Under the pieces are notes generated by a model that saw nothing but the letters and a program-made list of their open reading frames with translations, was not told where the DNA came from and searched no databases. A stretch of DNA of 64,000 nucleotides from Paludibacter sp. (lineage in GTDB: Bacteria > Bacteroidota > Bacteroidia > Bacteroidales > Paludibacteraceae), in contig JAQTTH010000022.1 in NCBI GenBank assembly GCA_028710895.1, forward strand, positions 1 through 64,000. Direction: 5' to 3'. Within the stretch, counting starts at the first letter, position 1, and the number at the start of each line of letters is the position of its first letter. The translations under genes were made by a program, and so were the position numbers. Shown here piece by piece: positions 56,175 through 61,102 of this stretch.

Positions 56175-57144
56175 TATAATTGTTCCGATACATAATGCAG
56201 GTGAACGATTAACTGCCTGTTTGGATACTCTCATTCAACAAAGTTTACAAGATATAGAGATTATACTTGTATTAGATTGCCCAACTGATGGATCAGATAT
56301 CATTGCAAAGCAATACGCTGAAAAAGATAAAAGAATCGTTATTCTTGAAAATCAAATTAATTTGCATATAGGAAATAGCAGAAACAGAGGACTTGAAATC
56401 TCTAAAGGCGAATATATTGGTTTCTCTGACCATGATGACTATAGAGAATTAACCATGTATGAGAAATTATACAACAATGCTCAAACTACAAACTCAGATA
56501 TTGTTCTGGGTATTTCAGTTTCAGTTGGGATTCAAAACGAAACCGTTCAGTTTCCTTCATCATTTTCAAACAATGATTTGCGAGAATATGCACTAATGGA
56601 TTTAGTATCTGGCGGTGACGATTTTACACTAATGCCTAGAGCAACAAACATACACCCCAATATTTATAAATCCCAATTATTGCGTGATAACAATATTTCA
56701 TTTGTTAACACCAACCTATATACTCCGGAGGACCGTATTTTTCAAATCATGTGTCTATACTATTCTAAAATTGTTAGTTTGTATACTGAACCATTATATT
56801 ATCATATTATATATCCGGAAAGTGCTGGTCAAAGCACCCTATATCAGTCGTACCAATCCCGTGCAAACGGAAAATTGAAGATTTATGAATTTTTAAAAGC
56901 GAATGATTGTTACGAAAAATATGAACCCGAATTTTTGAGAGCTACAAAAAAGGAATTTGTCAATTGTATTATTGATGTATTTCATTCTACAAAAAGCATT
57001 AATAAAGTTTTCAAAGCGATTAAATATTTAAAATCATTTCCTTTTTGTGAAAAAGCTTTTAAAAACACTTTTTATTCACTCCAAAGGTATCGATTTGGTG
57101 GTAAGCTATTTAGAACATTAATCTCTATCTTAATGCGTTTATAA
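56149..57144 (+). CDS. GT2-family glycosyltransferase
   Basis: The 331-residue GT-A enzyme has VSIIVPIHNAGERLTACLDTLIQQSLQDIEII, GNSRNRGLEISKGEYIGFSDHDD with an Asp-rich metal site, and ATNIHPNIYKSQLL. It overlaps the methyltransferase gene by 26 nt, which implies coupled translation. It is the last member of the glycan cassette; no polymerase or ligase is present. Confidence 0.9.
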   Translation: MINTIPKVSIIVPIHNAGERLTACLDTLIQQSLQDIEIILVLDCPTDGSDIIAKQYAEKDKRIVILENQINLHIGNSRNRGLEISKGEYIGFSDHDDYRELTMYEKLYNNAQTTNSDIVLGISVSVGIQNETVQFPSSFSNNDLREYALMDLVSGGDDFTLMPRATNIHPNIYKSQLLRDNNISFVNTNLYTPEDRIFQIMCLYYSKIVSLYTEPLYYHIIYPESAGQSTLYQSYQSRANGKLKIYEFLKANDCYEKYEPEFLRATKKEFVNCIIDVFHSTKSINKVFKAIKYLKSFPFCEKAFKNTFYSLQRYRFGGKLFRTLISILMRL

Positions 57145-57171
57145 TAAAAAACTAATTTCATTTATATAATT

Positions 57172-57543
57172 GTGCCAAACAACTCACTCACACAAACAAT
57201 TCAGGTACAGGCAAATCAAACTGCTGCACAATACGGTTCGGGATTATTGGAAGTTTTTGCAACACCAGCGCTAATCGGATTGATGGAAAATACAGCCATG
57301 AAATTAATAGAACTTCCGGAAGGTAGCTCCAGCGTGGGGACATTCATTAACATGAAGCATCTTAAGGCCAGTCCAATAGGTGAAATGATTGAATGTACAG
57401 CAACTATTATTGCCATTGAAGGACGTAAATACTCGTTTGAGATTAAAGCAACTGATTCTAAGGGAGATTTGGTTGGTGAAGCCACTCACGAAAGGGTTGT
57501 TATAAACATTGAAAAGTTTATGAGTAAAATTATAATTAAGTAA
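57172..57543 (+). CDS. Hot-dog thioesterase (fluoroacetyl-CoA thioesterase-like)
   Basis: The 123-residue protein matches the short FlK-like thioesterase group. GSGLLEVFATPALIGLMENTA, GTFINMKHLKASPIGEMIE and GEATHERVVI are conserved. It hydrolyses a small acyl-CoA and likely protects CoA pools. The start is GTG at 57172, 27 nt after the GT2 stop, so it may read through from the glycan operon. Confidence 0.87.
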   Translation: MPNNSLTQTIQVQANQTAAQYGSGLLEVFATPALIGLMENTAMKLIELPEGSSSVGTFINMKHLKASPIGEMIECTATIIAIEGRKYSFEIKATDSKGDLVGEATHERVVINIEKFMSKIIIK

Positions 57544-57612
57544 ATAAATAGCCTTAACGAAATTTAATTCAAATTTTAGGAGCAAAAAAGCAATCAAAAA
57601 AGATAAAAGCAT

Positions 57613-57620
57613 TACCTTTG
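57613..57620 (+). promoter_or_regulatory. -7 box for the PRC-MgtE/Nramp operon
   Basis: TACCTTTG followed by GCGGCGC is an exact match. Transcription would start near 57627, ahead of a short reading frame at 57647 and the main gene at 57761. Confidence 0.65.
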
Positions 57621-57646
57621 CGGCGCATTAATAAAAATCATTCATT

Positions 57647-57807
57647 ATGGACGACGACCCTGCGACTAGTTATTTAAAAAAATTCACCCGGATTTAGAAG
57701 GTCGTCTGTTCCCATATATCAACGGCTTGCCTTCTGAATCTACAAAAAAGAAGGTGGCTTATGACATCACAAATCACATTTTACTTGAGCCAAATTATTG
57801 GCAGTAG
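57647..57807 (+). pseudogene. Small ORF interrupted at an A7 run
   Basis: An ATG at 57647 opens 16 codons (MDDDPATSYLKKFTRI) to a TAG at 57695. The run of seven As at 57676-57682 forms A_AAA_AAA in frame. A -1 shift there reads on through IHPDLEGRLFPYINGLPSE and ends at the TAG at 57805, giving a product of about 53 residues with protein-like composition. The tail overlaps the next gene. It may be a single-base deletion, a programmed or slippage shift, or a sequencing error. No family was recognised. Confidence 0.4.
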
Positions 57808-59056
57808 AATCTATGACACCAATGATAATAAAATTGGAAAGGTTATAGATGTACTTGTGAACGCCTCACAAACAGGCGTTACACAAGATGAAGCTTTGAG
57901 ACCCATTGTTATTGGATTGAAAACAAAAGTTGAAGGAGAAATCCGTTATTTGAACTTTGAATTCATCAAACTATTTGGGTCTAACAAAAGTTTCAAATTT
58001 TTATGTTCACAAGTAAGTGAACTATCCGAAAACGCCAGAGAAAACTCCATGCCTCTGGTAAAAAATATCCTGGACAGACAAATTGTTGATATCAATGGAC
58101 GTAAATTGGTTCGTGTCAATGATGTCCGTATGGTGACAATTCCTTCAGGCAGCTATGCGCTGGCAGTTGATATTGGCACCGAGGGATTGTTACGCCGATT
58201 AGGAGTAGCAGGTATTGTAAATAAAATTGCAAGTCCTTTCAACGTAAGTTTGCCCACTCAGTATATTCTTTGGGACGATGTTGAAGCATTTGACAGCACA
58301 AATTTCAATATCATGTTGTCGCACAGCGATAGCAAACTTCAACGCCTTCACCCTTCGGATTTGGCCGATATCATAGAAGAAATGGGTTCATTATCACGAT
58401 CGAAGGTTTTTGAATCGTTGGACGATGAAAAAGCTGCAGATGTATTGGAAGAAATGGAACCTTACGCTCAGGCTCAAATTATTGAGAACATGTCAATTGG
58501 TAAAGCTGCGGATGTATTGGAAAAAATGCCTGCCGACGAGGTTGCCGATTTACTTGACGAATTAGAAGACGAAAAAGCGGAGCTGATTCTGAATGAAATG
58601 GAGAAAGAATCTTCGGAAGAAGTACGTGAACTACTTGAATATGAAGACCAGGAAGTTGGAAGCTTAATGACAACCGACTTCCTTGCATTCCGCGAACATA
58701 TGACAATTGAAGAAACACTTGCCGTTCTTCGTGAACAAAAGCCGGAAGCAGATATGATTTACTCGTTGTTTGTTACCGATGATGATGAAAAACTCATTGC
58801 AACTGTCTCACTTAGGGATCTTGTAATTTCTTTACCAACCATGACTTTGGAAGAAATCATGAACAAACACATTATCAGTGTTAATGATGAAGATAAAGTA
58901 GATACATTGGGGGCCATTATTTCAAAATACGACTTATTGGCTATTCCTGTAACTGATACTACAAATACCCTTGTAGGAATGGTTGTAATCGATGATATTG
59001 TAGAAGATTTAATGTTGAAAGGTAAAACGAAGAAAGGAGGTCGGTCATGGCGTTGA
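57761..59056 (+). CDS. Soluble PRC-barrel / MgtE-N / CBS-domain protein
   Basis: The 431-residue protein lacks the MgtE membrane domain. Residues about 1-185 contain PRC-barrel-like segments (LSQIIGSRIYDTNDNKIGKVIDV, NILDRQIVDINGRKLV). About 195-300 form the MgtE N-terminal superhelix (LHPSDLADIIEEM, KAADVLEEMEP, KAADVLEKMPADEVADLLDEL). About 300-425 carry two CBS domains (SLMTTDFLAF, LVGMVVIDDIV). In MgtE these domains sense magnesium and gate the channel. Here the gene overlaps the Nramp gene by 10 nt, so it is likely the cytosolic regulator of that transporter. Confidence 0.9.
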   Translation: MTSQITFYLSQIIGSRIYDTNDNKIGKVIDVLVNASQTGVTQDEALRPIVIGLKTKVEGEIRYLNFEFIKLFGSNKSFKFLCSQVSELSENARENSMPLVKNILDRQIVDINGRKLVRVNDVRMVTIPSGSYALAVDIGTEGLLRRLGVAGIVNKIASPFNVSLPTQYILWDDVEAFDSTNFNIMLSHSDSKLQRLHPSDLADIIEEMGSLSRSKVFESLDDEKAADVLEEMEPYAQAQIIENMSIGKAADVLEKMPADEVADLLDELEDEKAELILNEMEKESSEEVRELLEYEDQEVGSLMTTDFLAFREHMTIEETLAVLREQKPEADMIYSLFVTDDDEKLIATVSLRDLVISLPTMTLEEIMNKHIISVNDEDKVDTLGAIISKYDLLAIPVTDTTNTLVGMVVIDDIVEDLMLKGKTKKGGRSWR

Positions 59057-60309
59057 TGAAATACGGAGAACTCAATAAAAAGAGAAAAAATATCTGGCGA
59101 AACCTCCTTCTGTTTTTAGCTGTTTTAGGACCTGGAATTATAACAGGAAGCGTTGATAATGATGCCGGTGGAATCACAACCTATTCTATTGCAGGAGCCA
59201 TGTATGGTTATAATCTGCTATGGACAATGATTCCGGCCCTTATTGTTTTAATTGTAGTTCAGGAAATGAATGCCCGTATGGGAATTGTTTCTGGCAAAGG
59301 ACTGGCTGATTTAATCAGAGAGAATGCAGGAGTAAAAATTACATTCTTCATTTTCGTTGGACTTTTGGTAGCCGATATCGGTAACACCACAACTGAATTT
59401 GCCGGGGTAGCCGGTAGTATGCAGGTTTTTGATATAAGCAAGTACATTAGCGTTCCTATTTCAGCTGTATTAGTCTGGTGGATGGTGGTAAAGGGAACTT
59501 ATAAATTCAGCGAACGGGTATTTCTGATTTTCAGTGCATTCCTTTTGGTATATGTTGTTGCTGCTCTTATGGGCAAACCACATTGGCACGAGATTGGTCA
59601 GGCAATGATTAAACCCGGAATTCAATACAATAAAGAATATCTGGCGATCGTTATTGGAATTATTGGAACTACCATTGCGCCCTGGATGCAGTTTTACATG
59701 CAATCGGCTGTAATTGAAAAGGGATTGAAAATCACGGATTACAAATATACCTTGTGGGATGTAATTATTGGTAGTATTATCACTGTGGTGGTGGCATTCT
59801 TTATTATTATTGCCTGTGCCTCTACCCTACACGAAAATGGGATCAATATCGCCGAAGCAAAGGATGCTGCCATGGCTCTGAAACCTATTGCCGGCGATTT
59901 AGCGTCAATAACTTTTGCTTTTGGACTATTTATTGCTTCAATCTTTTCGGCCACCATTTTGCCTGTTGCTACAGCATTTTATGTGTGCGAAGCTTTCGGG
60001 TTCGAAGCAGGTATTGATAAAAAATGGAAAGAAGCTCCACAGTTTTATTGGCTATTTACATTTATAATCATCATTGGGGCTGCCATTATTCTAATTCCAA
60101 ATGCACCATTGATTATGATTACGTTGTGGTCGCAGGTGGCAAATGGAGTGTTATTACCAGTAGTTTTGGTATGTATGATTCTGATTGTAAACAATAAAGA
60201 AGTAATGGGTCAGTATGTAAATAACCGCGCACAGAATATATTTGGCTGGACTACTATTTCCATTTTGATTGGACTAACTGTAACACTTTTCGTAACCTCA
60301 TTTCTTTAA
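59047..60309 (+). CDS. Divergent Nramp-family transporter (magnesium-type NRMT candidate)
   Basis: The 420-residue SLC11/Nramp-fold protein has about 11 helices. The metal site is atypical: the helix-1 motif DPGN reads D37-N38-D39-A40, and the helix-6 methionine of MPH is replaced by Ala211 (APW). Loss of this methionine is a mark of the magnesium-transporting NRMT branch rather than manganese or iron carriers. Overlap with the MgtE-N/CBS gene supports a magnesium role. It ends at a bidirectional terminator. Confidence 0.87.
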   Translation: MALMKYGELNKKRKNIWRNLLLFLAVLGPGIITGSVDNDAGGITTYSIAGAMYGYNLLWTMIPALIVLIVVQEMNARMGIVSGKGLADLIRENAGVKITFFIFVGLLVADIGNTTTEFAGVAGSMQVFDISKYISVPISAVLVWWMVVKGTYKFSERVFLIFSAFLLVYVVAALMGKPHWHEIGQAMIKPGIQYNKEYLAIVIGIIGTTIAPWMQFYMQSAVIEKGLKITDYKYTLWDVIIGSIITVVVAFFIIIACASTLHENGINIAEAKDAAMALKPIAGDLASITFAFGLFIASIFSATILPVATAFYVCEAFGFEAGIDKKWKEAPQFYWLFTFIIIIGAAIILIPNAPLIMITLWSQVANGVLLPVVLVCMILIVNNKEVMGQYVNNRAQNIFGWTTISILIGLTVTLFVTSFL

Positions 60310-60335
60310 GTAGTAAATCATCGAAAGTAAAGCAA

Positions 60336-60376
60336 TAAAAAAAAGAGATTCTAACTAAGTTAGAATCTCTTTTTTG
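60336..60376. terminator. Bidirectional terminator between the Nramp gene and tRNAs
   Basis: AAAAAAGAGATTCTAAC pairs with GTTAGAATCTCTTTTTT; a perfect stem serving both strands. Confidence 0.92.
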
Positions 60377-60386
60377 GTTTTTGAGA

Positions 60387-60458
60387 GCGGAAGACGGGAC
60401 TCAAACCCGCGACCCTCAGCTTGGAAGGCTAATGCTCTATCAACTGAGCTACTTCCGC
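60387..60458 (-). tRNA. tRNA-Gly (anticodon TCC)
   Basis: A full cloverleaf is seen on the minus strand: acceptor GCGGAAG with CTTCCGC, anticodon loop CTTCCAA, T loop TTTGAGT. CCA is not encoded. It lies downstream of tRNA-Tyr in the same transcript. Confidence 0.96.
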
Positions 60459-60482
60459 AATTTTGAATTACAATTGAAACGT

Positions 60483-60564
60483 GGGCAGTGAAGGATTCGA
60501 ACCTCCGAAGTCGAAAGACAGCTGAGTTACAGTCAGCCCCAGTTGGCCACTTTGGTAACTGCCC
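60483..60564 (-). tRNA. tRNA-Tyr (anticodon GTA)
   Basis: The minus-strand sequence has acceptor GGGCAGT with ACTGCCC, anticodon loop CTGTAAC and a long variable arm, as expected of a class II tRNA. T loop TTCGAAT is intact. Confidence 0.96.
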
Positions 60565-60607
60565 TCTTTTTTCAAAAGCAGTGCAAAGATAGTTTTTTTA
60601 ATCTAAA

Positions 60608-61102
60608 CTACCAAATAATATTTGCCATTTTTATGGCTGTTGTAGCCGCTTCCACGCCTTTATTTCCATGAATTCCGCCGGCACGATCCAAGGCCTGTTG
60701 TAAGGTATTGGTTGTGAGAACTCCAAATACAACCGGGCATCCGTCCTTCAATAAATTTAATTCCGTAATTCCTGCTGTTACACTCTGACAAACATAATCG
60801 AAGTGAGGGGTATCGCCCTGAATGACGCAACCAATAACAATTATTCCATCATATTTTCCGAAAATTGAGAGTTGTTTTGCAGCATAGGTAAGTTCAACTG
60901 TTCCCGGAACATGCACCACTTGAATATTTTCAGGTTTCACTCCAATTAGTTCAAGCGTATCAATTGCGCCCTGAAGCATAGTATGTGTTATTTGAGGATT
61001 CCAGTCTGCTACAGCGATAGCATATGATTGTTCTGCTACCACTTCTTTGTCGGGCATAAGCTCTGCATTATACTCCGATAGATTTTGATATTGTGTTGCC
61101 AT
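60608..61102 (-). CDS. ribH: 6,7-dimethyl-8-ribityllumazine synthase
   Basis: The 164-residue riboflavin enzyme has AVADWNPQITHTML, VPGTVELTYAAKQL, IVIGCVIQGDTPHFDYV with the catalytic His region, and GVLTTNTLQQALDRAGG. It condenses the ribityl-amino uracil with dihydroxybutanone phosphate. It is separated from the TPR gene upstream by a terminator, so it has its own promoter in the 90-nt gap or depends on read-through. Confidence 0.96.
   Translation of the reverse strand: MATQYQNLSEYNAELMPDKEVVAEQSYAIAVADWNPQITHTMLQGAIDTLELIGVKPENIQVVHVPGTVELTYAAKQLSIFGKYDGIIVIGCVIQGDTPHFDYVCQSVTAGITELNLLKDGCPVVFGVLTTNTLQQALDRAGGIHGNKGVEAATTAIKMANIIW

Follow-up and report, generated by a model that had tools for sequence, protein, structure and literature searches.

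Layout of the locus

The DNA analysed here (the window) comprises the first 64,000 nucleotides of contig JAQTTH010000022.1 from the Paludibacter sp. assembly GCA_028710895.1, and carries a gene for a soluble MgtE-like protein (the partner) followed directly by a gene for an NRMT-type transporter, both behind a short upstream open-reading frame (uORF). The features of this locus are collected in Table 1. Both genes and their 10-nt overlap were re-found where a first-pass annotation, made from the sequence letters and a list of open-reading frames, had placed them, and the sequence AAGGAGG lies a little 5′ of the transporter start codon. The leader containing the uORF, on which that annotation was silent, is the strongest sign of magnesium regulation at the locus.

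Table 1 Features of the partner–transporter locus, in window positions
Feature	Position	Strand	Basis or comment
Promoter -7 box, primary sigma factor of Bacteroidota, TACCTTTG	57613..57620	+	TAnnTTTG consensus; uORF ATG 34 nt downstream
Leader uORF, 16 codons plus stop, MDDDPATSYLKKFTRI	57647..57697	+	MDxxP frame conserved in relatives; reverse test
Region 1, GACGACC	57653..57659	+	Predicted window fold, can pair with 57700-57706; weak in relatives (z<0 in 22/38)
Region 2, uORF end, stop codon and following bases	57692..57713	+	Predicted to pair with the anti-Shine-Dalgarno arm (2:3) or, through 57700-57706, with region 1
Region 3, anti-Shine-Dalgarno arm CCTTCT	57730..57735	+	Predicted 3:4 pairing
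Region 4, Shine-Dalgarno-like GAAGG of the partner gene	57750..57754	+	Unpaired fraction predicted for each ribosome state
Partner gene (PRC, second beta module, MgtE_N, CBS pair)	57761..59056	+	431 aa
NRMT-type transporter gene, metal site D39xxG42 and T208xxA211	59047..60309	+	420 aa; Pfam, alignment, tree
Terminator-like hairpin 3′ of the transporter gene	60339..60375	both (symmetric)	17-pair stem; 3 such sites in the region, shuffles mean 2.2

A conserved short open-reading frame precedes the gene pair

The uORF was found by aligning the regions upstream of the partner gene in relatives of the window (L-numbers; the best 80 of 573 confirmed related places were kept), and it ends 63 nt from the partner gene. 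A reading of the leader as an open-reading frame broken at an A run was dropped, because the relatives keep a conserved short frame with its own stop there. Scored as an ATG-initiated frame of 8-36 codons that starts with M[DE]xxP and lies at -165 to -80 of the partner gene, such a uORF was present in 54 of 105 partner upstreams. After removal of 8 near-identical upstreams, which left 97, it was found in 49 of the 71 non-redundant loci with a main-type partner as first gene, whereas shuffled sequences averaged 0.19 and never exceeded 2. Codon 2 was Asp in all 49 leaders (GAC in 43, GAT in 6), codon 3 was acidic in 38, codon 4 was Asp in 17 and Gly in 23, and codon 5, fixed as Pro by the filter, was written with four different codons; the consensus is MD[DE][DG]PA. 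The survey of same-genus and other related upstreams, from which partner matches starting past query residue 13 were left out, recovered the uORF in 6 of 8 same-genus loci.

The uORF is the sole match of its pattern in its own genome, and only 4 of 298 other genes at the 80 loci were preceded by such a frame, among them a second copy of the partner in L037 and the CorA gene of L103. For a reverse test, the 18-nt consensus ATGGAYGANGRNCCNGCG was searched blind against 393 genomes of the order to which the window belongs. It matched at 29 places, and its reversed form at 3. A partner gene follows at a distance of 101-124 nt in 22 of the 29 and a CorA gene at 258-269 nt in 3, and the other 4 lie elsewhere. 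A looser pattern run over 395 genomes of the phylum gave mostly background, with 75 places against 22 for the reversed pattern; among 30 of the 75 that were inspected, only the window precedes a partner gene and 23 read on for more than 40 codons. The leader was also considered as a general device of CorA or MgtE genes and rejected as such, being present, among the matches listed, at 0 of the 30 top-scoring CorA loci (one with 84 nt of upstream sequence) and 0 of the 30 top-scoring MgtE loci, and at neither of the genome's own two CorA genes. Together, the reverse test, the background of the looser pattern and these nulls show that the leader belongs to these pair operons and a few CorA genes, and not to Mg2+ transport at large. 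No report of an MDxxP leader in Bacteroidota, Bacillota or Spirochaetota was found in the literature searched, which left out most subscription papers.

Several side observations concern these short frames. In L208 (1586-1705) and L217 (1321-1419, minus strand) the MDxxP leader and corA are separated by a second small frame, of 39 and 32 codons, whose start is preceded by a hairpin. CorA genes standing beside the pair have short acidic uORFs of their own in L103 (2410-3333, minus strand; MDDHPAEIKNLN), L060 (6419; MDDYHSTQLKLLIR, without Pro5) and L041 (2712; MPDPDSH...), and in L050 a frame starting MPDSDH... precedes the partner. The looser pattern often matches a conserved internal MDEDPA(W/F/Y)Y of one long protein found in many Bacteroidota (L232, L235, L241, L243, L244, L247 and L249-L257).

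Upstream of the uORF, 31 of 38 leaders carry TAnnTTTG, the -7 consensus of sigma-ABfr (PMC7366714), at a distance of 28-38 nt from the ATG, whereas shuffled sequences gave 2.8 on average and 9 at most; the count omits nine Bacillota or Spirochaetota leaders and two with less than 70 nt upstream. From the position of this box, the uORF is probably the first open-reading frame of the message. A Shine-Dalgarno (SD)-like site stands before the uORF in 8 of the 9 leaders from Bacillota and Spirochaetota and in 0 of the 40 others, and 39 of those 40 have a strong SD-like site before the partner gene. Bacteroidota are not known to rely much on SD sites; the partner SD may serve some special purpose here, or the hairpin described below may affect the entire start site.

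Predicted folding of the leader RNA

Pairing of the four leader regions was compared with shuffled sequences in 38 of the 49 leaders, 11 being omitted as their uORF ends 58 nt or less from the gene or leaves too little room. Pairing of the anti-SD arm with the SD (3:4) had z<0 in 38/38 leaders (mean z -2.62) and pairing of the same arm with the uORF end (2:3) in 33/38 (mean z -1.94), and a third stem with the Asp codons (1:2) was clear only near the window; the p-values of these pairings are too good because the leaders are related. In the window, the SD was predicted to be unpaired at 0.00 with no ribosome, 0.58 with a ribosome early in the uORF and 0.00 with a ribosome at the stop codon. When ribosome footprints were imposed on all 49 leaders, mean SD openness was 0.141 with none (shuffles 0.326), 0.304 with an early ribosome and 0.16 with one at the stop, an early-minus-none gain of 0.163, and 0 of 60 shuffled sets reached either this gain or the early-minus-stop gain. 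These in silico results suggest that the leader holds mutually exclusive structures switchable by ribosome position.

The transporter is of the NRMT type and is paired with the partner

The second protein of the pair matched Pfam Nramp at 326.5 bits, as expected from the Nramp fold assigned to it in the first-pass annotation. NCBIfam gave general Nramp names alone, with NF037982 above its cut-off and the MntH model below. The closest solved chain was EleNRMT (7qia; E 3.8e-111, 47% identity), followed by a MntH at E 2.4e-28. In the metal-site signature that Ramanadane et al. (2022, PMC8806188) give for NRMTs, helix 1 carries DxxG and helix 6 carries TxxA/T, and alignment with EleNRMT placed D39xxG42 and T208xxA211 of the window transporter at these sites, with D39, E117, T208 and Q363 at EleNRMT Asp55, Glu133, Thr224 and Gln379. 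The first-pass annotation had correctly seen that the classical DPGN site is altered and that Ala211 stands at the helix-6 Met position, but the replacement is D39-A-G-G42 (DAGG) and not DNDA, which occupies residues 37-40 and is not aligned to DPGN. Thr208 stands at the helix-6 Ala position of the classical Nramp site, and the helix-6b histidines of the proton pathway are replaced by W213 and M218. In a 45-row tree, the placement that annotation had proposed as a check, the window transporter grouped with EleNRMT and Bacillota NRMTs, apart from MntH (support 95/89, with a long-branch warning). The genome's other Nramp, which clusters with DraNramp (100/100), retains the classical metal site, DPGN and AxxM. 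On its sequence, the window transporter is thus an NRMT, for which EleNRMT would predict Mg2+ transport without proton coupling.

The partner gene lies directly 5′ of the transporter gene on the same strand in 75 of the 80 loci, so the pair recurs in other genomes, and the gap to the NRMT match was mostly 50 nt or less (the widest being 76, 128 and 182 nt). Five loci lacked an upstream partner: L062 starts at the very end of its contig, upstream sequence in L091 is limited to ~410 nt, and no partner match was obtained in L065, L105 and L108, where other genes or none occupy the place. In L037 the whole pair is present twice, as convergent copies. The order is reversed, with the partner 3′ of the transporter, in a Bacteroidota clade farther from the window and on Citrobacter and Cellulomonas plasmids. 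A full partner was found in 9 of 36 searched genomes of the window's genus, its own included. No natural fusion of partner and transporter was apparent from lengths among the matches listed. The pairing is already known and not new here, as Shin et al. (2014, PMC4072509) had reported that a gene resembling the MgtE cytosolic region adjoins most nrmT genes and had proposed feedback regulation.

The partner resembles the cytosolic sensor of MgtE

Pfam placed PRC at residues 6-36 of the partner (PF05239, 29.8 bits, cut-off 21.2), MgtE_N at 196-296 (96.1 bits) and CBS in two stretches, and the MgtE transmembrane domain PF01769 was absent. The soluble PRC/MgtE-N/CBS architecture described in the first-pass annotation is therefore present, and its view of MgtE-type domains placed on a separate protein agrees with a genome in which no MgtE channel was found. 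In structure searches the partner fold was that of the MgtE gating domains. Window D227, D259, D263, D391, D412 and E415 align with MgtE E59, D91, D95, D226, D247 and D250, and the plug-helix sites E258 and D259 of MgtE have no counterpart. Asp was retained at the positions of MgtE Asp91, Asp95 and Asp247 in 69, 72 and 72 of 73 partners.

Of four relatives scanned for the Pfam PRC domain, L045 and L008 passed, L074 fell below the cut-off and L084 had none. Beta modules were predicted in the partner N-terminus; among the structure matches listed none covered residues 1-90 and none was a PRC barrel, which is a weak test, and no solved chain matched residues 1-192 by sequence at E up to 1. A possible second PRC-like module (95-192) aligned with the first by profile at P 0.008 but with a probability of 2%. 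A divergent partner, type B (~25-30% identical), stands beside NRMTs that are still ~66-71% identical and lacks the MDxxP leader, which may reflect partner replacement or faster evolution. Type-B loci are L074, L077, L078, L099, L006, L007, L080, L084, L087, L088 and L107.

Genome context links the pair to magnesium

The window's genome has two CorA genes, no MgtE channel that could be found and a single MgtE_N protein, which is this partner. An MgtE channel was missing from 9 of 99 Bacteroidota genomes. Among the matches listed, only G000, G078 and G097 of the 99 carry a main-clade NRMT (at least 69% identity), and all three are MgtE-less (Fisher p 5e-4). The pair thus seems to stand in for MgtE.

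The M-box Mg2+ riboswitch was present upstream in 10 of 12 Bacillota loci; in L066 the contig begins inside the partner gene. The M-box (RF00380) was found neither in window positions 56900-60700 nor elsewhere in the window's genome, nor in 11 Bacteroidota loci, and no other Rfam family was found in the leader, either in the window region or, at gathering scores, in those 11 loci. In 7 of the 10 M-box loci (L045, L048, L053, L076, L090, L097 and L114) the MDxxP uORF lies between the M-box and the partner gene, giving these leaders two possible Mg2+ sensors.

A proposed magnesium-sensing operon

With a conserved uORF and motif behind a promoter box, alternative pairings in silico and a link to Mg2+ transporter genes, we read the locus as an operon for Mg2+ uptake whose leader encodes a nascent-peptide sensor of Mg2+, with a probability of about 0.65. 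Three parts of this reading are inferred: ribosome destabilization by the peptide, a response of the leader to Mg2+ and gating of the transporter by the partner. In ample Mg2+, a ribosome would complete MDDDPATSYLKKFTRI and rest on the stop codon, where it would cover region 2; the anti-SD arm would then bind the SD and shut off translation of both genes. In low Mg2+, the Asp-Asp-Asp-Pro start would cause the ribosome to halt or drop off early, region 2 would capture the anti-SD arm and the SD would be freed. The NRMT would import largely hydrated Mg2+ without proton coupling, judging from EleNRMT, and the partner, as the cytosolic sensor of MgtE in the form of a separate subunit, would most likely damp uptake at high cytosolic Mg2+, with its PRC-type modules as a likely docking surface. 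This role of the MgtE-type subunit in controlling activity is held less surely than that of the nascent-peptide sensor in controlling expression. The first-pass proposal of a regulated NRMT-type magnesium transport system is thus supported in part. More widely, we lean, by a modest degree, to the view that Bacteroidota, Bacillota and Spirochaetota gauge Mg2+ shortage by an MDxxP leader that fails the ribosome early and so opens the nrmT operon and some corA starts; in Bacteroidota it would act alone, and in most of the Bacillota relatives seen it would follow an M-box.

A number of results weigh against this reading. The uORF was present in 0 of 11 type-B partner loci and 0 of 18 loci with the partner downstream, it was absent from L121 and L122 of the same genus, neither CorA gene of the genome is preceded by one, and Pro5 belonged to the filter by which leaders were recognized. 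In the predicted folds, openness with an early ribosome (0.304) is still under that of shuffles (0.366), SD opening exceeds 0.1 in only 20 of 49 leaders, the window included, and 25% of single shuffles reach as much. Covariation among nine close leaders was not beyond shuffles (124 and 85 of 500 were as high), and, taken as a whole, the window leader has only a moderate folding advantage over shuffles (z -1.57). Of 73 partner proteins, only 7 keep Asp at the position of the MgtE Mg5 residue Asp226, and 58 have Leu in place of the ATP-stacking Phe227. The NrmT of A. capsulatum behaved as a Mn2+ transporter in complementation, and its partner gene gave no extra rescue (PMC4072509).

The last of these results raises the question of whether the transporter is mainly for Mn2+, with the MgtE-like partner answering to Mn2+ or to something else. 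A. capsulatum NrmT, known here from its publication, did rescue a Mn2+ uptake mutant (PMC4072509) and EleNRMT carries Mn2+ too in liposomes (PMC8806188). However, a classical MntH is already encoded in the window's genome, 10 of 12 loci of the nearest Bacillota NRMTs are under a Mg2+ riboswitch, and the same type of leader also precedes corA (3 of 29 pattern matches, and L103), all of which makes a mainly manganese-directed role quite improbable. It is also possible, though we consider it unlikely, that the uORF is an ordinary translational-coupling leader, or that the RNA itself binds Mg2+ and the peptide is secondary, so that Mg2+ is not sensed via ribosome destabilization. In leaders close to that of the window, some of the Asp codons pair with region 2, and RNA pairing alone could therefore conserve the Asp codons; many Bacteroidota leaders, with Gly at codon 4 (23 of 49), are less acidic than the MgtL motif, and direct RNA sensing has been proposed for mgtA as well (PMC11552253). 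Yet the motif persists in lineages without the 1:2 stem, all 49 leaders keep Asp2, whether as GAC or as GAT, 38 of them have an acidic residue at position 3, Pro5, itself in the filter, is reached by four codons, and in Bacillota the uORF stands alongside an M-box in 7 of 10 loci.

The partner, for its part, might be a Mg2+/nucleotide sensor or chaperone that acts elsewhere and is merely co-expressed with the NRMT. NRMTs do function without it, in complementation (PMC4072509) and in liposomes (PMC8806188), NRMT genes without an adjoining partner match occur in L065, L105 and L108, and L127 has a partner and no NRMT in its available flank. Against this stand the retention of the pair in 75 of 80 loci, its duplication as a unit in L037, the pairing kept in reversed order by a distant clade and a partner fold that is that of the MgtE gating domains, so that we regard a role apart from the transporter as doubtful and retain the partner as its putative gate.

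Comparison with known magnesium systems

The published NrmT/NRMT genes with an MgtE-like neighbour (PMC4072509, PMC8806188) share with the window the transporter family, the metal-site signature and the gene pairing, and riboswitch control is seen in the Bacillota relatives; the window differs in its Bacteroidota genome, its MDxxP leader and its lack of an M-box, and the term PRC does not occur in the 2014 text (PMC4072509). Shared with the MgtE channel are the N and CBS domains with acidic residues of the Mg2+ sites, whereas the window partner has no transmembrane channel or plug helix, has PRC-type modules in addition and stands beside a transporter of another fold.

Small leader frames before Mg2+ transporter genes are known from Enterobacteria. 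In MgtL, the leader of mgtA, ribosomes drop off at EPDP, residues 2-5, in low Mg2+ (PMC11282234), in Salmonella mgtQ, before mgtB, acidic codons are tied to a hidden ribosome-binding site via alternative stems (PMC8092293), and E. coli corA is preceded by the uORF corL (PMC11552253). The window leader likewise is a short frame with an acidic and Pro-containing start before an Mg2+ transporter gene, with a ribosome-binding site predicted to be freed by alternative stems as in mgtQ, and its motif, as read from sequence, resembles the ribosome-destabilizing EPDP of MgtL. The MDxxP leader thus bears the marks of both MgtL and mgtQ, an acidic/Pro start and a hidden ribosome-binding site with alternative stems. 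It differs from MgtL, corL and mgtQ in its phyla, its transporter, its consensus and, in Bacillota, the M-box alongside, and it is known here from sequence and predicted folds. The nearest published case appears to be a conserved uORF behind an M-box in mycobacteria (PMC12810186), which is also a small frame with an invariant Pro near its start. That uORF has another peptide and other downstream genes, and the terms MgtL and destabili- are absent from the text of that paper.

If the proposed reading is true, Mg2+ sensing via ribosome stability would not be an Enterobacterial oddity but a widespread device, ancient or convergent. The leader would bear on control of the pair where an M-box is absent and would tag Mg2+-linked members of the NRMT family by sequence, and the role of the partner would become approachable by mutation through the Mg2+-site residues of MgtE that it retains as a free subunit.

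Neighbouring features and minor observations

Two tRNA genes lie on the opposite strand beyond the terminator-like hairpin. In L094 the partner consists of two adjacent pieces with separate matches (query 1-104 and 172-425), and L127 (G252) has a partner gene (47% identical) with an MDEGP leader and no NRMT match in the available flank. Among the plasmid-borne pairs, L136 lies near recombinase and transposase genes, L137 and L138 adjoin genes for a metal-efflux ATPase and an ArsR-type protein, and in all three the partner is annotated merely as 'CBS domain-containing protein'.

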